A stretch of DNA of 34,608 nt, taken from the NCBI GenBank assembly GCA_019414645.1, contig DXLP01000023.1, forward strand, positions 1 to 34,608. The letters run 5' to 3'. This document shows, piece after piece, positions 2,463-34,608 of the stretch (position 1 is its first letter; the number at the start of each line of letters is the position of its first letter). The position numbers were made by a program, and so were the translations under genes. The notes below the pieces were generated by a model, which had not been told where the DNA came from, made no database searches, and saw only the letters and a program-made list of their open reading frames with translations. The stretch comes from Collinsella sp. (GTDB taxonomy: Bacteria; Actinomycetota; Coriobacteriia; Coriobacteriales; Coriobacteriaceae).

Positions 2463-4187
2463 CTACGAGCGCAGTGTAATTTTATCGCGCAGCGATTTGA
2501 GGTCTTCGGTGACGGTACGGTCTTCCTGGATCATCTTCTGGACCTTTTTGTAGCTCGTGCTGACGGTCGAGTGGTTGCGGTTGCCAAATTCGGCGCCCAC
2601 CGCCGTGGTCGTCATCTCGCACATCTCGATGGCCAGGTAGATAGCGATATGGCGTGCTTTGGCGATATTGGCGTTGCGACGCGGGCCGATGAGCTCCTCG
2701 TGCGTCACGCCGTACTGCTCTTCGATGACGGACTGAACCGTCTGGACGTTGATCTTTTTGGCCGATGTGTCGAAGTACTGGCTGGCGATGGCGTCGATAT
2801 CGTCAAAGGTGAGCTCCCCGCCCTCGCGCTCGCGGTCGCCCGCCTCGCCGGCGCAGCGCTCGCAAAAGCTCTCGAGTTCGCGGATGTTGGTGCCCGAGAC
2901 CTCGGCCATGTGTTTAAAGTGCTCGTCGGTCAGGTGTCCGCCGTCGCCCCCATAGGCCGCCAGCAGCGAGTCGTCGCCTGCCTCGGGAGCGGCGACGATG
3001 GTGTTCTCGTAATAGCGCTGCAAGATCTTGTATTTCATCTCGTAGCTGGGCTCTGCGACCAGGCAGAGCATGCCGGCGTTGAAGCGGCTGGTCAGACGCT
3101 CGTCCATGCTCAGGTCCTTGGGGGCACGGTCTGCCGCGATGACGACCTTCTTGTTGTTGCGGATGAACTCGTCCATGAGCTGGAAAAAGTAGTCCACGCT
3201 CGCGCGCTTGCCGATGATGTTTTGGATGTCATCGATGATGAGCACGTCCACGCCGTGGTACGCCTGCATGATGGGGGCGTTGCTCTTCTTTTGGCGGTCG
3301 AACTCGGTCATCAGGTCGTCCAGATATGCCTGGGAGTTGGCATACTTGACCTTGATCTCGGGCGACTTCTCGGCGAGCTCGTTTTTGATGGCAAGCAGCA
3401 GGTGCGTCTTGCCCAGGCCCGATTTGCCGTAGATGAACAGTGATGTGCATGTGCCGCGCTCGTCCGCGAGGGCGGCAAACTTGAGTGCCGAGCGATAGGC
3501 ATGGCTGTTTTCGGGGCCGTAGACAAAGTTCTCAAAGGTAAATTTTGAGTTCGCGGCGAGCGGGGCTCCATCCGTATTCTGCTCGGCCGGCACGGTCGGC
3601 GCCGGTATGGGTGAAGCGGGGGTCGCAGCTTGCGTGGATTTAGTCGGCGCTCCGCCCTTCATCTGGTTCATCATGCGACGAAAATCATCGGCCGAGAGCG
3701 TGTTCTTGATTGCAATGCCCGAATCCGCGCCCGCCGCTGCGTCGTGAGCGATAGGCATGTGCGTGACGGGTGCGTTCGTTGACGTCGCCGCCGCGGTCGG
3801 CAACGGTGCCATGGTTTCACGGGAAACATCGCTGTGCTGGTGCTCGATTGTCGGCACGTCGCCTGCGGAGGTCGGTGCCGCCGGGGAAGCGGCGGGAGCC
3901 GTGGCGGGCGCCGTCGCGGCAGCGGATTCCGTTGCGGCGCCTTGCGGTGCCACGATGTCGAGCGCGATCGGTGCAAAGGCGATTTCTTCCAGATAGGCCT
4001 CAATAGTCGGCTGATGCTTTTTGAGCTGCGCGATGGCAAAGCGCGAGGGGGCCTCGATCGTGAGCGTATCTTCGGTCAGGCTTATGGCCCGCGATTGCCC
4101 CAGCATGTTGATGAGGCGTGCATCTTGGCCGTCGCGCTGGCAAAAGGCGATGGCATCCCCCAGGATGATGCTTGCTTCCTCGTCCAC
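2463..4187 (-). CDS. dnaA: Chromosomal replication initiator protein DnaA
   Basis: DnaA is the AAA+ initiator that binds DnaA boxes and melts the origin. At 574 residues it is long for the family (often about 450) because domain II, roughly residues 80-212, is an Ala/Pro/Thr-rich linker. The AAA+ part starts near SKFTFENFVYG and has Walker A GKSGLGKT (about 254-261) and Walker B VLIIDDIQ. The arginine-finger region DERLTSRF and the C-terminal DNA-binding signature GAEFGNRNHSTVSTSY follow. The start is GTG at 4187 with GGGAGA upstream. Only 15 bp separate it from the upstream ATPase gene, suggesting co-transcription. Residues 120-125 (DVSRET) are encoded by a parS-like sequence. Confidence 0.98.
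   Translation of the reverse strand: MDEEASIILGDAIAFCQRDGQDARLINMLGQSRAISLTEDTLTIEAPSRFAIAQLKKHQPTIEAYLEEIAFAPIALDIVAPQGAATESAAATAPATAPAASPAAPTSAGDVPTIEHQHSDVSRETMAPLPTAAATSTNAPVTHMPIAHDAAAGADSGIAIKNTLSADDFRRMMNQMKGGAPTKSTQAATPASPIPAPTVPAEQNTDGAPLAANSKFTFENFVYGPENSHAYRSALKFAALADERGTCTSLFIYGKSGLGKTHLLLAIKNELAEKSPEIKVKYANSQAYLDDLMTEFDRQKKSNAPIMQAYHGVDVLIIDDIQNIIGKRASVDYFFQLMDEFIRNNKKVVIAADRAPKDLSMDERLTSRFNAGMLCLVAEPSYEMKYKILQRYYENTIVAAPEAGDDSLLAAYGGDGGHLTDEHFKHMAEVSGTNIRELESFCERCAGEAGDREREGGELTFDDIDAIASQYFDTSAKKINVQTVQSVIEEQYGVTHEELIGPRRNANIAKARHIAIYLAIEMCEMTTTAVGAEFGNRNHSTVSTSYKKVQKMIQEDRTVTEDLKSLRDKITLRS
3813..3828. other. parS-like 16-mer inside dnaA
   Basis: On the minus strand the bases read TGTTTCCCGTGAAACC, differing from the perfect parS TGTTTCACGTGAAACA at two positions (7 and 16). 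It falls in the dnaA linker and is translated as (D)VSRET, which is the peptide produced when a perfect parS is read in this frame. Whether ParB binds is not known from the sequence. Confidence 0.45.
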
Positions 4188-8997: not shown

Positions 8998-9798
8998 GTG
9001 GGATTTCGCGACGTTAAGCGTTCTAAGAGCGCAAAAGACACGCGTATCATTGCAATCATCAATCAAAAAGGCGGCGTCGGTAAGTCAACGACGGCCGTAA
9101 ACCTTGCAGCAGCACTGGGTGAGCAGGGTCGTAAGACACTGATTGTCGATTTTGATCCGCAGGGAAACAGCACCAGTGGATTCGGAATTGAAAAAGAAGA
9201 CCTTGATCACTGCATCTATGATGCATTGTTGAATGATGTGCCGGCAGAATCGCTTGTTCTTGATACAAATTGTAAAAAGGTATTCGTTATTCCGGCTACA
9301 ATTCAACTTGCAGGCGCGGAAATTGAGCTCGTAAGCGCAATTGCTCGTGAAACCCGCCTCAAAGATTTGCTTGAGCCGATTCAGGACGAGTTTGACTTTA
9401 TTTTCATTGACTGTCCTCCTTCGCTCGGCCTGCTTACTATCAACGCTTTGACCGCAGCAGACAGCGTTTTGATTCCGATCCAGTGCGAATATTACGCACT
9501 CGAGGGCGTTACGAAGCTGCTTGAGTCAATGAAGATGGTCAAATCACGGCTGAACAAGGGCTTAGACACCTATGGTGTGCTTATGACCATGTATGACTCG
9601 CGTACTTCACTATCGAATCAGGTTGTTGAGGAGGTTCAATCGTACTTTGGTGATAAGGCGTTTAAGACGCTAATCCCCCGTACGGTTAAAATCTCCGAAG
9701 CTCCGTCTTTTGGAGAACCGGTAATTACCTATGCACCTCAAAATAAGGGTGCAAAAGCATATATGAACCTTGCAAAAGAGGTGATCAAGCGTGCCTAG
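8998..9798 (+). CDS. parA: Chromosome-partitioning ATPase ParA (Soj-like)
   Basis: ParA is a deviant Walker-A ATPase that forms DNA-bound dimers and moves or positions ParB-parS complexes. The 266-residue product carries QKGGVGKST (about 23-31), the dimer motif VDFDPQGNST and the Walker B-like FIDCPPSLG. The GTG start at 8998 is supported by AGGAGGG just upstream. parB begins before the stop, with an 8-bp overlap. Three parS sites lie directly upstream. The short N-terminal extension before the Walker motif makes it a chromosomal Soj-type protein rather than a plasmid type with an HTH. Confidence 0.97.
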   Translation: MGFRDVKRSKSAKDTRIIAIINQKGGVGKSTTAVNLAAALGEQGRKTLIVDFDPQGNSTSGFGIEKEDLDHCIYDALLNDVPAESLVLDTNCKKVFVIPATIQLAGAEIELVSAIARETRLKDLLEPIQDEFDFIFIDCPPSLGLLTINALTAADSVLIPIQCEYYALEGVTKLLESMKMVKSRLNKGLDTYGVLMTMYDSRTSLSNQVVEEVQSYFGDKAFKTLIPRTVKISEAPSFGEPVITYAPQNKGAKAYMNLAKEVIKRA

Positions 9799-21734: not shown

Positions 21735-24700
21735 CTAGCGCTTCTTTGGGGTCGACCTAAGGCGAGCGAACCATAGGGCTGCGGCACCCGAGGTCAGGAG
21801 CGCGGTGATGCAAGCGGCGATGGGAACTGATCCTGTTGCCGGTAGGTCCTGCAGTAGGGTACAGCGTTGAATGACACGGTCCTCGTCATGTGACTCAAGT
21901 TTATCGCCGCCGCCGTTGCGGCAAAGATCGACGCGTGCGCTGTTGGTGAGTGCGGTTTGGGGCGTATAAGCCGACGTCGCCTGCATGTGCACGATTGCGC
22001 CCCGAGCGTCTGTGCCAAGGATTGCTTTGGCATCGTCAAGGTCGTCGTGCTCATCTTTGAGATCATCGCGGGTCCAAGAATCCGCATCGCTTCGAGTCGT
22101 AAAGCCGGCGGCTACCGCACCGTATTCAATTCGAATGCCCGTTACGACGGTATTGGGTGTAAGGTCGAGCTCTTCCGTCTCGAGTGTGGTGGATTCCGTG
22201 GTCGAGACATCCGCCTTCCAGAGGCGCCAGCCGTCGTAATCGACGAGGCGACAGTCCTCACCAAGGCTCTCTTTTACTTCGTCGGACTCAAGCCAAGGAT
22301 TTTCGTGTCCATCGTCAAGTGTCGCGTTCGCCGGTTCATCGACGTCTGTCGAGTCCAACGGCGTCGTGCGATACCACACGTTGCACAGACCGTTGAGGTC
22401 GCCGATGGCGACGGGGGTTTCGATTGAGACGAATCTCGCCGTATCGTCCTCGGCACACTCAAGATCATCGGTAATTGTGAACTCATCAACCCAGGTAGTT
22501 GAATCGTTTCGAGCGTCGATGGTATAGGAGAAAAGCCCATCCGTATTGGTTTGCATCGCGGCACGGTTTTTACCATCGCCGTTAGCCAACAGGCCCTTTT
22601 CGATAGGTTGGACAAGTTCCTGACGCTTGTCGACCTGCCCCTTGATCTCGATGGGCGCATCCTTCATCGCGACGGATTGGACTTCTCCCGTATCCTTTAT
22701 TTCAAACGTTATCTCCTCGGCAAGGTCATAGGTCCGCGGAGACATCATTTCGCGCAACGAGTAGGTGCCGGGTGCAAGATGTTCGACGCGGTGTGGCTTG
22801 TCGGATGAGGTCCAGGAGTCTATTTCGGTTTTATCGGGACCATATAAGGCGAGCTGTGCGCCTTCCACTTCCTGCTCACCGCTTGCATCGACCTTGGAGA
22901 TATCAACCTTGGTGTAATCGTCGGATACGTTAAGCCGTGCTTCTACAACGGGTGTTTTCTGGTCGGCATAAGTAAGGTCGACAATATGGGTTGTCTGATC
23001 GAGCAAGAAGCCTGCCGGCGCTTGAGTCTCGACAACCTCGTAGCGTGCGGTGCCAGATCCCAGTGGGAGGTTGCCCGCGCGTGCTTCTCCAGTTTCATCC
23101 GTCGTGACGGTCGCGACAGTCTCACCGTCGAGCGCGGCAATGCTACCGTCGGGGCGCACGATATCACCCGAGGCACGGATCTCAAAGACGGCGCCCGCGA
23201 GGCTGCTGCCGTCTATGGCATCGGTTTTAACGATCCTGATGTTTCCGGTCGCGGCGTGGTCATAATACGAGGCGATTGCAACGGGCGTTAGGTTCATGTC
23301 GGCGGGTATGTTTACCTCGATCTCTTCGCCGACAAGATAGGGCTCTTTGGCCGAGGTTTCGCGTACATAATAGGTGCCCGGCACGAGCGATTCGGGCAGT
23401 GTGACGGTCCCGGTCGCGTCAGTCGTAAAGGTGTCCATTACGTTATGTGCTGGATACCAGCAAGTTTGTGAGACAGGTTCGTGATTGCTGTCGAGGAGTT
23501 GGAAGGTGAATCCGGCTAGGGGAACAGAAGCGCCTGTTTGGGCATCGCGTTTTACAATCTGGAGATGCGTCGACAGAGCGTGGTTGTCCACGATATATTG
23601 AAGCTCGGCGCCGTCGGAAATCTGATTGGCCCCGACGGTCCATTCCCCTGCACGTTTAAAACCCTCGGGGACGGTTTCCGGAACCTCGCGAACCGTGTAG
23701 CCGGCACGGTCGTATGGGACGGCTCCGTGGACACCGGCGGGTCGCTTGCCTGCGCCGAACCATGCTTCGGGCTGATCTTTGGTGGAGGCAAAGCCATAGA
23801 TGTTTGTGATCAGTGTGCCAACAACCTGCTGAGAGCTGTTGCTGACAACCTCAAAGACAACACCACCCGCCGGCTGCTCCAGGCCGGATTGGTCGCTATT
23901 GCCGTAATCCTTGAATTTGGAAATCTCAAGGTTAAACGCAATGGGGATATCGGAAACGCGAGACTCGATCTCGACCACGCCTGAATCGCCGAGCTGGTCG
24001 GCTCCAACGGTATAGGTCCAGCTGTCGTTGGATGGCAGGTAGCCCTCGGGGGCTTTTGATTCGTAGATGGTAAAGGTTCCTAAGGGGACATCGGCGAGGG
24101 CGGCCCGACCGCTTTCGTCGGTCGTGAGGATTTGTGCCCATCCAGGGGTTGATTGCGACACACACGTGAACTCTGCTCCTGCGAGTGAAGATCCCACCTG
24201 GGGGCCGGCATTCGTCGCGGCATCGAGTTTTACGATACGCAGGTTGATGGTGCCGGGCTGTTCATCAATGGCGACCCGCCCGCCGTCATTCCCCGTGGTA
24301 AAGGCAATACGATCGTGGCGGGGGACATAGCCGGCCGGCGCCTTCGTTTCAACTAGGTAGTATGCCGTGTTGGGCAGAAGTGTTGCTTGCGCTCGACCGT
24401 TGCTGTCCATCTTGATGGTGCCGACACGCGCGCCGCTGGCGCTCTCAAAAATATCGAATGTTGCCCCGGTAAACTGATAGGTATTGTTTCCGCTGGTAAT
24501 AACGGTGTTAGCAGACTGCTTTTGGAAGGAAACAGAGACCGCCGGCAGTACATAGAGCATGTCTTGACGTTTGCTGCCGCCCGATACGGCCCCTAGATAG
24601 CGTCGCGCGCGGTGCGGAGCGGCTTTGATGCTTCCTGATTTTGCGCTGTCGTGGAGCCACCGCGCAGCCGCCACGACTTCATTGTCGGCGGTAAAGTGTC

Positions 24701-25166
24701 CGCTCTTGGTTTTACCCTGAGCGGTCGTGTAGGAGTAGGTGCCGTCGACATGGGTAGTGCCGTTGAGCATCCATACGGCAAGCTGGGTGGCGGCGCGGGC
24801 GCGATCGGGTGAAAGATGGTAACCGCCAAACGACGTGGCGGTAGGATATCCGTGACAAACGATTGCCGCGAACTCGTCGTCGAGCCACACCCAGCCTTGA
24901 TCAAAGTTGAGCCATGGGCCGCCCGGCTTGGTGGGGCCGGGGCGCTCCTGGTTCATGCAGTAGGCAATCGAGGCGTCTTGAGCTTCATACTTGCCGATGA
25001 AGAAGGGCCCACAATCATCGCTAATAGTGCGGAAGCCGAGCTGGTCGTAGCCATCGACGGCAAATGCGGCTCCCGGTGCCAGGCAGCCGAAAAGCAGGAA
25101 GAGGAGCAGGAGCAGCGGACCTGTTGCAATTGCGCTGTGGACAGAGTGCGTGGGTGCGTTGGACAT
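21735..25166 (-). CDS. LPXTG surface adhesin with thioester domain and SpaA/Cna-B-like repeats
   Basis: The 1143-residue protein has a signal peptide (hydrophobic core LLLLLFLLFGCLAPGAAFA, cleavage near 36). A thioester-type domain follows, with Cys70 in IAYCMN and Gln128 in the TQLAVW motif; such domains can bond covalently to host surfaces. Six SpaA/Cna-B-like domains lie at about 210-840. They show recurring NLRIVKLDA-type starts and E-containing YxVxETxAPxGY-type ends, which suggest Lys-Asn/Asp isopeptide cross-links. A further domain (about 850-1100) precedes LPATG at 1108-1112, a membrane segment and a basic tail, the sortase signal. No sortase gene is in the window. ATG 25166 has AAGGAG upstream. 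It is convergent with the M28-like operon. Confidence 0.92.
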   Translation of the reverse strand: MSNAPTHSVHSAIATGPLLLLLFLLFGCLAPGAAFAVDGYDQLGFRTISDDCGPFFIGKYEAQDASIAYCMNQERPGPTKPGGPWLNFDQGWVWLDDEFAAIVCHGYPTATSFGGYHLSPDRARAATQLAVWMLNGTTHVDGTYSYTTAQGKTKSGHFTADNEVVAAARWLHDSAKSGSIKAAPHRARRYLGAVSGGSKRQDMLYVLPAVSVSFQKQSANTVITSGNNTYQFTGATFDIFESASGARVGTIKMDSNGRAQATLLPNTAYYLVETKAPAGYVPRHDRIAFTTGNDGGRVAIDEQPGTINLRIVKLDAATNAGPQVGSSLAGAEFTCVSQSTPGWAQILTTDESGRAALADVPLGTFTIYESKAPEGYLPSNDSWTYTVGADQLGDSGVVEIESRVSDIPIAFNLEISKFKDYGNSDQSGLEQPAGGVVFEVVSNSSQQVVGTLITNIYGFASTKDQPEAWFGAGKRPAGVHGAVPYDRAGYTVREVPETVPEGFKRAGEWTVGANQISDGAELQYIVDNHALSTHLQIVKRDAQTGASVPLAGFTFQLLDSNHEPVSQTCWYPAHNVMDTFTTDATGTVTLPESLVPGTYYVRETSAKEPYLVGEEIEVNIPADMNLTPVAIASYYDHAATGNIRIVKTDAIDGSSLAGAVFEIRASGDIVRPDGSIAALDGETVATVTTDETGEARAGNLPLGSGTARYEVVETQAPAGFLLDQTTHIVDLTYADQKTPVVEARLNVSDDYTKVDISKVDASGEQEVEGAQLALYGPDKTEIDSWTSSDKPHRVEHLAPGTYSLREMMSPRTYDLAEEITFEIKDTGEVQSVAMKDAPIEIKGQVDKRQELVQPIEKGLLANGDGKNRAAMQTNTDGLFSYTIDARNDSTTWVDEFTITDDLECAEDDTARFVSIETPVAIGDLNGLCNVWYRTTPLDSTDVDEPANATLDDGHENPWLESDEVKESLGEDCRLVDYDGWRLWKADVSTTESTTLETEELDLTPNTVVTGIRIEYGAVAAGFTTRSDADSWTRDDLKDEHDDLDDAKAILGTDARGAIVHMQATSAYTPQTALTNSARVDLCRNGGGDKLESHDEDRVIQRCTLLQDLPATGSVPIAACITALLTSGAAALWFARLRSTPKKR

Positions 25167-25463: not shown

Positions 25464-25538
25464 GCGGGCATCGCCAAGTGGTAAGGCATCAGCTTCCCAA
25501 GCTGACACTCGCGGGTTCGAGTCCCGTTGCCCGCTCCA
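25464..25538 (+). tRNA. tRNA-Gly (anticodon CCC)
   Basis: The acceptor arms GCGGGCA (25464-25470) and TGCCCGC (25528-25534) pair fully. The anticodon arm CAGCT...AGCTG encloses TTCCCAA with anticodon CCC. The T-arm is CGGGTTCGAGTCCCG (25512-25526). Discriminator T is followed by an encoded CCA (25536-25538). Its 3' end is copied three times downstream. Confidence 0.97.
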
Positions 25539-25549
25539 TTCGAATTTCA

Positions 25550-25581
25550 GGCACGGTAACGTTTCGTTACCGTGCCTTTTT
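25550..25581 (+). terminator. Terminator after tRNA-Gly
   Basis: An 11-bp perfect stem (GGCACGGTAAC at 25550-25560, complement at 25566-25576) with a GTTTC loop is followed by TTTTTC. Confidence 0.93.
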
Positions 25582-25592
25582 CAATAAAGTGC

Positions 25593-25607
25593 CGGGACTC
25601 GAACCCG
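25593..25607 (-). repeat. Inverted 15-bp copy of the tRNA-Gly T-arm
   Basis: CGGGACTCGAACCCG is the exact reverse complement of the tRNA-Gly T-arm at 25512-25526. On the minus strand the surrounding bases look like a T-arm within an otherwise unrecognisable tRNA remnant. A GAA-loop hairpin follows at 25627-25643 (TAAACGC / GCGTTTA). Confidence 0.6.
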
Positions 25608-25672
25608 ACAGGGTGCGAGCGTTAAATAAACGCGAAGCGTTTATAGCGAGCAGGCAAGGTCGCCGATAGGCG

Positions 25673-25729
25673 GCCGCAGCCGGTGCGGATTTGCGAAGCA
25701 AATACGCGGACGTCCCGTTGCCCGCTCCA
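25673..25729 (+). repeat. tRNA-3'-end stem-loop module, copy 1
   Basis: 57-bp unit: GCCGCAGCCGGTGCG lead, a 10-bp hairpin with GAA loop (arms 25685-25694 and 25698-25707, one mismatch), then GTCCCGTTGCCCGCTCCA (25712-25729), identical to the last 18 bases of tRNA-Gly. It is followed by a CCGAG/CTCGG inverted repeat (25730-25734, 25745-25749). Confidence 0.8.
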
Positions 25730-25802
25730 CCGAGCGCGGGAGAACTCGGGACGGCCAATTCAACAAAGTTTTCCCCATCGTCTCCGTGAATCCGAGGAGA
25801 TC

Positions 25803-25859
25803 GCCGCAGCCGGTGCGCGTCCGCGACGCGGGCGCGCGGATGTCCCGTTGCCCGCTCCA
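25803..25859 (+). repeat. tRNA-3'-end stem-loop module, copy 2
   Basis: Same 57-bp unit 130 bp downstream of copy 1. The hairpin arms (25815-25824 and 25828-25837) have changed sequence but still pair (TCC opposite GGG where copy 1 has TTT opposite AAA). The loop is GAC. It ends in the same 18-base tRNA-Gly 3' end. Confidence 0.8.
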
Positions 25860-25933
25860 TCGAGTACGGGGGACCTCGGGAACGTCGGGTCCAACCCGCT
25901 GTGCCCGTGCGTGTGCGCGGACCGGGTCTGCCG

Positions 25934-25990
25934 ACCGCAGCCGGTGCGTATTTGCGAAGCAAATGCGCAGACGTCCTCATGGTCGCTCCA
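25934..25990 (+). repeat. tRNA-3'-end stem-loop module, copy 3 (diverged end)
   Basis: Third 57-bp unit, 131 bp after copy 2. The hairpin (arms 25946-25955 and 25959-25968, GAA loop) pairs along all 10 positions with one G-T. The end reads GTCCTCATGGTCGCTCCA, a diverged form of the tRNA 3' end. Confidence 0.75.
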
Positions 25991-27567: not shown

Positions 27568-27831
27568 ATGATTTCGTTTGATTACAAGCCTCAGGGCGTG
27601 TGTGCTCGCAATATTCACCTTGACCTTTCCGATGACGGCAACAAGGTGATGGGCGTTGAATTTACCGGCGGCTGCGACGGCAATCTCAAGGCTATCTCCA
27701 AGCTGGTCGAGGGCGCTCCTGCCGATCGCGTAATCGAGGTTCTCGCCGGTAATACCTGCGGTATGAAAAAGACCTCCTGCGCCGACCAGCTTACACGCGC
27801 TATCGAGGCCGCTCGCACCGAGATCGCCTAA
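27568..27831 (+). CDS. TSCPD-domain protein (TIGR03905-like)
   Basis: The 87-residue product has conserved cysteines in GVCARNIHLDL, FTGGCDGNLKAIS, NTCGMKKTSC and the TSC(P/A)D-type motif TSCADQL. This matches the small TSCPD family also found at the end of class II ribonucleotide reductases, of unknown independent role. ATG 27568 has GAGGGG upstream. Its stop codon shares a base with the ATG of the Tat lipoprotein (TAATG), so the two are translationally coupled. Confidence 0.85.
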   Translation: MISFDYKPQGVCARNIHLDLSDDGNKVMGVEFTGGCDGNLKAISKLVEGAPADRVIEVLAGNTCGMKKTSCADQLTRAIEAARTEIA

Positions 27832-29042
27832 TGGGTATCGCCGATCACATCAAGAACGGAATATCGCGTCGCGGCTTTGTACTCGGTGGGGCTGCCGCGG
27901 GCGCTGCCACGGTGCTTGCCGGATGCTCGAAAAAAACGGGCACCAGCGATGATGCCGCCGGCGAGCCGCAGGTTATCAAGGATGATTCCAAAATCATCTC
28001 GATTACGGATGAGTACGAGGCAGTCGACATCGATCTTGAGCCGGCGGCGTCGTGGACGCTGCCTCTGGGTACGCTGCTGTACTACTGCGACGGCGATTAC
28101 GCCGCGGCAATGATGGCGCCCGCATCGGCACTGCACGCCAACACGCTCGGTGTGCTCAACCTGGGCGATGGCTCGCTTACCACATTAATCGAGGATCCTA
28201 TCGAGGGCACGGGATATGCATTCTACGATGTCCGTGCCGGCGACGGCGTATTCGCGTGGGTTGAGATGAACTTTGCCAATTCATCGTGGAAGCTCTACGC
28301 TCAAAATCTGTCGGGCGCTTCGCTCTCTGGCGACGTGGTTGAGCTCGATCGAGGTGGCAAGGACTACGATCCGCCGCTGTTTACGGCGTTCGGGGCATCA
28401 GTCATCTGGTATAAAATGCCTTCGGCAGGCGGCAATAAAACGAGTAGTGATTCGTTTTGCTATCGTCGCTCGCTTGATGAATCCAAGGCCGAGGTAATTT
28501 GGAAATCGACGGGCCGCTTTGCATCGGCCCCGCGCGCGAGCGACGGCATTTTGACCATCTCGCCGCGTGTCCGCAACGACGAGGGCGTCTACTACGGCAT
28601 AACGGCAATCGATCTGACCGACGGCAACAACACCAAACGTGCCCAGCTAGTCCTTCCCTCGTCAGTCTCGCCTTTCGAGGCCGTATATATGGGCGATACC
28701 TTCGTGTTTTCTATCGAGGCGGCCTATAGTGGCGTGGGCAGCCTGGGCAATATGGGCACATATATCGGTAATGAGGGAGGGCCGTACCTCTTCCTGTCCC
28801 GCGAGCCGCTCGCATGTGCGGCTGGCAAGAAGAATAAATACCTTGTTAAGGTACAGGCGTCGCATTTCCTGATCGACACCTCTGCCAAGACCTATGGCTC
28901 GCTGCTGTCGCCCGACCGCGCTTTGGAGTATGGCGATTATCCAGCTACGGCGGGAAAATCGGACTCATTCCTTACGTACGCCACGGTGCGCAACAGCCAG
29001 GGTATACCAGAGACGGTCACTGCACGTCTATTCTCTCTTTAA
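27831..29042 (+). CDS. Tat-exported lipoprotein, possible beta-propeller
   Basis: The 403-residue product begins with a twin-arginine signal (ISRRGFVLGG) followed by a lipobox LAGC with Cys32 as probable lipidation site. It is therefore folded before export and anchored to the membrane. The remainder is rich in short Gly/Asp/Trp beta-type segments (for example GYAFYDVRAGDGVFAWVEM and YGITAIDLTDGN), which suggests a beta-propeller-like fold; this is inference. No catalytic motif was seen. It is coupled to the TSCPD gene upstream and lies ahead of a two-component system. Confidence 0.82.
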   Translation: MGIADHIKNGISRRGFVLGGAAAGAATVLAGCSKKTGTSDDAAGEPQVIKDDSKIISITDEYEAVDIDLEPAASWTLPLGTLLYYCDGDYAAAMMAPASALHANTLGVLNLGDGSLTTLIEDPIEGTGYAFYDVRAGDGVFAWVEMNFANSSWKLYAQNLSGASLSGDVVELDRGGKDYDPPLFTAFGASVIWYKMPSAGGNKTSSDSFCYRRSLDESKAEVIWKSTGRFASAPRASDGILTISPRVRNDEGVYYGITAIDLTDGNNTKRAQLVLPSSVSPFEAVYMGDTFVFSIEAAYSGVGSLGNMGTYIGNEGGPYLFLSREPLACAAGKKNKYLVKVQASHFLIDTSAKTYGSLLSPDRALEYGDYPATAGKSDSFLTYATVRNSQGIPETVTARLFSL

Positions 29043-34466: not shown

Positions 34467-34539
34467 GGGCCGTTAGCTCAGCTGGCAGAGCAGGGGACTT
34501 TTAATCCCAAGGTCCAGGGTTCGAACCCCTGACGGCCCA
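34467..34539 (+). tRNA. tRNA-Lys (anticodon UUU)
   Basis: Acceptor arms GGGCCGT and ACGGCCC pair fully. The D-arm is TTAGCTCAGCTGGCAGAGC, the anticodon loop CTTTTAA gives anticodon TTT, and the T-arm is CAGGGTTCGAACCCCTG. Discriminator A (34539) is followed by CCCA, so an exact CCA directly after it is not encoded. Nothing is recognised in the last 69 bases of the window. Confidence 0.96.
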
Positions 34540-34608
34540 CCCAAAGATTGTTGGGCTTATAGGACAAAATGTGTGTCCACGTTGGGGGCATCGGCGCAGG
34601 TCGATGCC

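Follow-up and report, generated by a model that had tools for sequence, protein, structure and literature searches.

Short folded repeats with tRNA-copied ends behind tRNA genes of Collinsella and other bacteria: an RtT-like candidate family

The tRNA-Gly locus and its array

The DNA analyzed here (the window, 34,608 nucleotides of a Collinsella contig, all of it referred to by its own positions) carries a tRNA-Gly gene that is followed, on the same strand, by three units, of which the first (25539-25729) is intact and the other two are decayed. The features of this array are as follows.

25464..25538 (+): tRNA-Gly(ccc), the host gene, CCA encoded (ARAGORN and Rfam)
25549..25577 (+): terminator-like hairpin (13 pairs) and then T5, located in the spacer that separates the tRNA from the element (consensus scan)
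25593..25607 (+): left end of unit 1, CGGGACTCGAACCCG, the reverse complement of the tRNA-Gly T-arm (inverted repeat I2)
25608..25711 (+): core of unit 1 with hairpins P2-P5 (structure hand-set on alignment A1)
25604-25606/25611-25613 (+): pairs of P2
25615-25620/25646-25651 (+): outer P3, with tandem G.A
25626-25633/25637-25644 (+): inner P3
25653-25655/25679-25681 and 25658-25664/25669-25675 (+): P4
25685-25694/25698-25707 (+): P5
25712..25729 (+): right end of unit 1, repeating the final 18 nt of tRNA-Gly in direct orientation
25744..25859 (+): unit 2, decayed, with an exact tRNA tail copy at 25842-25859 (model R1)
25866..25990 (+): unit 3, decayed, with a diverged tail copy at 25973-25990 (model R1)

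A unit is thus built from a spacer, which here contains the tRNA terminator, the local T-arm copied in inverted orientation, a core of about 100 nt with four hairpins and a direct copy of the tail, that is, of the last 18 to 23 nt of the gene. The left end (25593-25607) can pair with the copied tail, its first 6 nt forming helix P1 with 25712-25717, and the 18- to 19-nt tail of tRNA-Gly occurs at 25521, 25712, and 25842. The original prediction, which was made from the sequence of the window, described three 57-bp modules. These repeats were recovered at 25673, 25803, and 25934, with spacings of 130 and 131, with hairpins as it gave them and with a tRNA tail that is identical in copies 1 and 2 (25712 and 25842) and diverged in copy 3 (25973-25990). 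The array is therefore real, but the 57-bp module turned out to be just the 3' third of a larger unit of about 190 bp, which begins at the end of the tRNA and closes with the copied tail and whose inverted T-arm on the left had been missed. Likewise, copies 2 and 3 are present, but they are decayed whole units, which had gone unnoticed: their matches to model R1 scored 29.7 bits (25744-25849) and 34.6 bits (25866-25980), compared to 146.5 bits for unit 1 (25590-25719).

The scan that detected the terminator-like hairpin gave 3 matches in the region against 1.3 expected, and the consensus scan for a sigma-70-type promoter gave no match in the window region. No integrase was found among the ten large ORFs of the window tested with Pfam, in agreement with the prediction that none is nearby. 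A tRNA-mimicking RNA had also been proposed; understood as a cloverleaf, this was not borne out, since neither ARAGORN nor the Rfam tRNA model called a tRNA on the window element and both reported true tRNAs only, while an RNA carrying a tRNA tail is possible.

Elsewhere in the window, tRNA-Lys(ttt) lies at the very end (34467-34541), and the remaining 67 nt contain no left end. A 1,143-aa protein with SpaA repeats and a thioester domain according to Pfam (21735-25166, minus strand) looks like a surface adhesin or pilin, and a 403-aa ORF (27831-29042, plus strand) had no Pfam match at an E value of 1e-5. Since Pfam identified DnaA (2463-4187, minus strand) and a ParA-type ATPase (8998-9798, plus strand), the window is probably near the replication origin. 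The closest of the compared genomes, G001, had 94% of the window's sampled words in common with it.

A repeat behind many tRNA genes

The window unit belongs to a widespread family of RtT-like repeats of about 110 to 150 nt, which are structured, non-coding and tethered to tRNA genes. DNA matches were found in 31 of the 43 genomes of the genus, and the matches in many genomes, these 31 included, ruled out a chance or private duplication. Within the order, 51 of the 120 genomes searched had matches to model R1 (33 of the 90 good-quality ones); under stricter filters, R1 matched in 13 of 396 genomes of the phylum, a single one of which (G317) lies outside the order. Matches to R3 were present in 16 of 39 genomes of the class, and matches to R2 in 2 of 41 genomes of the phylum.

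The host genes comprise about 30 kinds of tRNA gene as well as tmRNA, and the element lies just 3' of the gene on the same strand. R1 gave 69 hits in 57 loci, 65 of which were examined (two duplicate loci and two weak second hits were dropped). A tRNA or tmRNA was called upstream on the same strand for 60 of these, the other five being a tmRNA recognized by eye (L095), hits close to contig ends (L075 and two in L107), and L082, whose upstream gene is, by eye, a probable tRNA-Sec. All 17 model hits in the single-contig genome G003 were behind tRNA or tmRNA genes, three of them at tRNA-Arg and two at tRNA-Gly. In twenty stretches from the genus, units in the sense of the gene followed tRNA-Leu(cag), Leu(taa), Arg(acg), Glu(ttc), Gly(gcc), Gly(tcc), Ser(gct), and tmRNA; at the tmRNA loci L032, L037, L043, and L047, the right copy was below the 18-nt test length. 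Beyond the right tail copy in these stretches, the local terminator was often repeated and a second, prematurely ending unit came next.

Arrays of units are short, and those of L032, L033, L036, L043, L047, L050, L103, and L104 tended to end in a second unit cut in its left third, several of the cuts being near the loop of the P3 hairpin. The last repeat of the tyrT array of Escherichia coli is fractional, and the cut-off ends of these arrays recall it.

A DNA pattern scan of titled genomes gave 80 matches in 77 stretches, from Collinsella and from other taxa, namely, Ruminiclostridium cellobioparum, R. hungatei, and Hornefia, with further assemblies named Emergencia, Anaerovorax, Family XIII, Peptostreptococcaceae, and Propionibacteriaceae. 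Judged by this pattern, the family is also present in Clostridia and in other Actinomycetota. A tRNA or tmRNA was called on the same strand within 600 nt for 59 of the 80 matches, and its last 16 nt recurred with at most 2 mismatches in 41 of them; the 18 without recurrence were cut-off second units, left-only remnants, decayed copies or cases where none was found. The other 21 matches had no tRNA call in the batch run, and by eye a tRNA tail was seen upstream in 18 and was absent in L176, L190, and L202. R2, which was built without the pattern-scan loci, recovered 39 of 41 such loci at an E value of ≤0.001. Thirteen more loci, including a place already known (L242, the same as L124), gave an exact recurrence of the tail in 10 cases, one with 2 mismatches in L244 and none in L243, while L249 had no called tRNA.

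Fold, fitted ends and spread

Forty-eight elements were extracted, and 26 of them were aligned, the others being omitted as redundant or divergent. RNAalifold returned a poor consensus on the mixed 48-element alignment, and the structure was set by hand on the 26; in this alignment, rows that close in a gap had their right ends one column off, and a pair proposed for columns 14-27 did not pair and was dropped before model building. In the resulting structure, P1, made from the two tRNA-derived ends, closes a conserved core of hairpins P2 to P5. The outer part of P3 is GCGAGC/GCGAGC, with tandem G.A, in 22 of the 26 elements and GCGGGC/GCCCGC in 4.

Covariation was scored on model-fitted alignments, which lean to the structure of the model and in which kinship of the sequences inflates the shuffle tests: in the R1 set (104 matches, 102 of them distinct, from 86 sources), 91.0% of the cells paired compared to 70.4% after shuffling, 42 of 43 pairs showed two-sided changes, and the covariation score was 0.489 against 0.146 for shuffled alignments and 0.045 to 0.077 for slid partners; in a wider set that includes Clostridia (91 matches, 90 distinct), the values were 89.3% of cells paired, 42 of 43 pairs changed on both sides, and a score of 0.569 against 0.153 after shuffling. 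Covariation in the fold is very strong. Within the core helices, G.T cells outnumbered A.C cells by 92 to 16 (61 to 15 without the richest pair), and loops were of the GNRA type in at least 45 of 90 P2 hairpins and of the GNA type in at least 56 of 90 P5 hairpins. This excess of G-U (G.T) over A.C, together with the loop types, suggests that the structured form is single-stranded and has the sense of the tRNA, which would most simply be RNA. The plus strand folded lower than the minus strand in 46 of the 48 elements; for the window copy, folding energy gave no strand difference (z of -2.86 and -2.79, respectively).

Both ends reproduce the 3' tail of the host gene itself, the left one inverted and the right one direct, and both usually fit. 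We examined 190 distinct tRNA or tmRNA contexts, a biased sample because most loci had been fetched for carrying the element, and found the last 15 nt of the gene again 70 to 320 nt downstream in 115 of them and no such copy in the other 75. The duplication started 18 to 23 nt before the gene end in 104 of the 115 (the other 11 being repeats of whole tRNAs), and its far border lay no more than 1 nt from the gene end in 60 cases and beyond it in the rest. The tail is thus duplicated from the T-loop onward, so that the tRNA stays intact. Where the tRNA does not encode CCA, the copy stopped at the gene stop in L140 and L148 and ran on in L164.

In 73 of 96 elements, the left 7 nt agreed fully with the T-loop complement of the local gene, whereas 2,000 shufflings gave 18.8 such elements on average and at most 29 (the anchor was lacking in 3 of 99 elements, one at a tmRNA and two of them E. 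coli RtT units, which had been left out beforehand). In the collapsed set, 49 of 69 fitted, against a shuffled mean of 11.5 and a maximum of 20; some T-loops were mis-cut where CCA is not encoded, an error that works against the fit. The left stem fitted less well, with 336 of 470 matches compared to 285 after shuffling (maximum, 308). Across 16 Collinsella tRNA-Gly loci, mean identity was 0.92 in the core and 0.945 in the right copy, as opposed to 0.78 in the spacer and 0.72 downstream, and the left end was invariant, although the search pattern almost required it. The covariation and the locally fitting ends strongly support the proposal that both the tRNA end and the fold are maintained. 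An exception to the fit was L109 (genome G083), where the right tail matches a tRNA-Ser(gct)-type gene and not its own tRNA-Ser(cga), possibly as the trace of an exchange between tRNA loci.

Near-identical cores with different ends occurred within single genomes. In G101, cores about 97% identical were found at three different tRNAs, with related spacers and each with its own tail (one mismatch in L103). Two tRNAs of G108 carry cores that are 97% identical, and the T-loop complements of these copies differ as their tRNAs do (ATTTG versus ACTCG). The cores of G087 were on average about 92% identical, each with its local tail, and in G098, G087, and G122 the cores were alike (pairs up to 0.94 to 0.96), with spacers and both ends local; cores at the same tRNA in different genomes of the family to which G101, G108, and G087 belong had a mean identity of 70% (3 pairs only). 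Collinsella cores track the tRNA (mean of 0.79 between genomes) rather than the genome (0.64 to 0.73 within), suggesting that spread there is old or rare.

Whole units also differ between relatives. At an orthologous tRNA-Arg, G003 and G002 are distinguished by a clean filled/empty difference of 191 bp, with 97.3% identity over the 294 other positions. At tRNA-Lys(ttt), G001 has only a cut-off left end, and in G003 such an end is accompanied by a unit. Left-only remnants, consisting of the inverted T-arm without core or right copy, were seen in L255 (G001, tRNA-Lys), L023 (G013, tRNA-Gly), and L183 and are apparently contracted arrays. Recombination between repeats would explain the filled/empty pairs, as gain or as loss. 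Judging from the 191-bp pair and from near-identical cores with local ends at different tRNAs, there is spread, gain or loss of whole units in this family.

Origin of the units and likeness to known systems

With confidence somewhat above even, we read the units as short, structured, tRNA-tethered mobile elements, probably non-autonomous and mostly selfish. Homology to the T-loop and 3' end of a further tRNA gene would let such an element enter it, by ectopic recombination, by template switching or with the help of an enzyme acting in trans, and entry would duplicate the local tail and leave the tRNA whole. The left end would then be refitted, either by template switching between the inverted repeats, an idea for the upkeep of RNA stems found in PMC8794818, or by selection for P1. 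The predicted fold may be kept because the left end, when present in a read-through or co-transcript, could otherwise pair with the tRNA itself and must be hidden. No transposase, integrase or reverse transcriptase was tied to the family among the ten window ORFs searched. Against mobility, the cores of Collinsella track the tRNA, long retention and strong covariation would suit a host function as well, the left stem is only partly fitted, the tail of L109 is mismatched, and 75 of the 190 contexts have no copy.

A host-functional RNA is the chief competing possibility, which we rate as rather unlikely. It would be transcribed with or after the tRNA, like rtT in the tyrT operon of E. coli, and would either affect tRNA processing or termination in cis or serve in trans as a small RNA, with ends that have to fit the tRNA. 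The strong covariation, the wobble bias of the sense strand, the GNRA loops and the constant orientation in the tRNA's sense would all suit it, as would the report in PMC4986893 that two RtT-family RNAs encoded close to Actinobacillus tRNA genes gave Northern signals, along with the modulating effect of rtT on the stringent response that it cites. By eye, no obvious terminator is present in the G101 spacer, and in L068 one follows the right copy, which makes co-transcription plausible there. In the window, however, a terminator-like hairpin separates tRNA and element, no sigma-70-type promoter was matched, and two units are decayed. The distribution is patchy even within the order (51 of 120 genomes), whole units are present or absent between close relatives, and in some genomes spread is recent.

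Remnants of phages or integrative and conjugative elements (ICEs), which would have recombined at T-loop att sites and lost their interior, are improbable. The accretion at a tRNA attachment site envisaged in the original prediction holds in that the tail copy starts in the T-loop, about half of the copies extend no further than the gene itself, as an att core does, and the tRNA is preserved whole. It falls short in that one conserved folded core with an inverted tail copy sits at about 30 tRNA types, and no integrase was found among the tested ORFs of the window; moreover, near-identical cores with different, locally fitting tails in one genome are unexplained by recombination at a fixed att site. 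We give very little credence to a device acting at the DNA level, such as decoy tail copies that divert integrases from the tRNA gene: the tail copy is often exact, as this would have it, but the inverted left end, the conserved core and the excess of G.T over A.C are left unexplained. A chance or private decayed duplication at one locus has next to no probability, for despite the decay of units 2 and 3 in the window, it is refuted by a family with many genomes, covariation and locally fitted ends. Casposon-like insertion, reverse transcription, an RNase P guide, and a tRNA primer-binding site are further conceivable readings. Among the three options originally offered, a REP-like dispersed family fits best, given the distribution over many genomes and many tRNAs. 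Going beyond the mobile elements favored here, we tentatively consider, at somewhat less than even confidence, a cross-phylum class of mobile RNA-structured elements that would have tRNA genes as homes, take both ends from the tail of each host and move by tail homology or through an RNA intermediate, with the E. coli tyrT repeats as one stranded member.

To our knowledge, the repeats behind E. coli tyrT have long been without a full explanation. Their anatomy is now seen in a large family with many host tRNAs, filled/empty pairs, fresh-looking spread and strong covariation, which makes it testable how units move, how both ends come to fit a new tRNA and whether the RNA has a role. The family would provide a natural case for template switching in the maintenance of RNA stems, as conceived in PMC8794818, and the regions 3' of tRNA genes in Coriobacteriia and some Clostridia would have to be annotated differently. 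In gut bacteria, many tRNA genes are thus followed by a short folded repeat whose ends are an inverted and a direct copy of the end of that same tRNA, and such repeats seem to have passed from one tRNA gene to another.

In E. coli MG1655, RtT RNA (RF00391) forms a tandem array of four units behind tyrT/tyrV. These units begin with the inverted T-arm/acceptor of tRNA-Tyr (the loop being imperfect, by eye) and end with its tail and CCA, the same anatomy as described here, and the tandem G.A motif in P3 of the present family has a counterpart in RtT, according to PMC7657543. The Rfam RtT model gave no match in the window, in any of 11 related genomes (the E. coli control being positive) or in 7 loci up to an E value of 5, which ruled out filing the family under this model, and R1 did not match the E. 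coli RtT locus at E values up to 1. R2 and R3 were not trained on RtT. In an unfiltered search of a 1.4-kb E. coli locus (L052), R3 placed the four RtT units first, with E values of 6e-4, 0.002, 0.006, and 0.01 and the next hit at 0.28, and R2 also ranked them first (0.003 to 0.005); the four are repeats of each other and thus not independent, and we regard this similarity as marginal and suggestive. The present family is RtT-like and not a member of RF00391. In contrast to E. coli RtT, its units occur at many tRNAs per genome and in two other phyla, have ends refitted to each tRNA and differ largely in spacers and cores. PMC4986893 links RtT-family RNAs to several tRNA operons, so that occurrence at multiple tRNAs is not wholly new for RtT. 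A literature search that covered few subscription journals returned no paper describing a family of refitted units behind many tRNAs; parts of the family may be among the 3,161 candidate structured RNAs from gut metagenomes presented in PMC8040213.

With elements that integrate into tRNA genes and leave att repeats, many copies have in common a direct repeat from T-loop to gene end and an intact gene. The unit of about 190 bp is, however, too short for an integrase gene and has an inverted tail copy at its left, and here the tail varies by locus while the core is constant. REP/BIME sequences are marked by a REP consensus and by a RAYT transposase in the genome. Like the present units, they are dispersed, intergenic, hairpin-rich and presumably non-autonomous. 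PMC2965389 places RtT-like elements of Enterobacteria among the BIMEs. What sets the present family apart from REP/BIME is that its place, behind tRNAs, and its strand are fixed and that its ends are derived from the tRNA.
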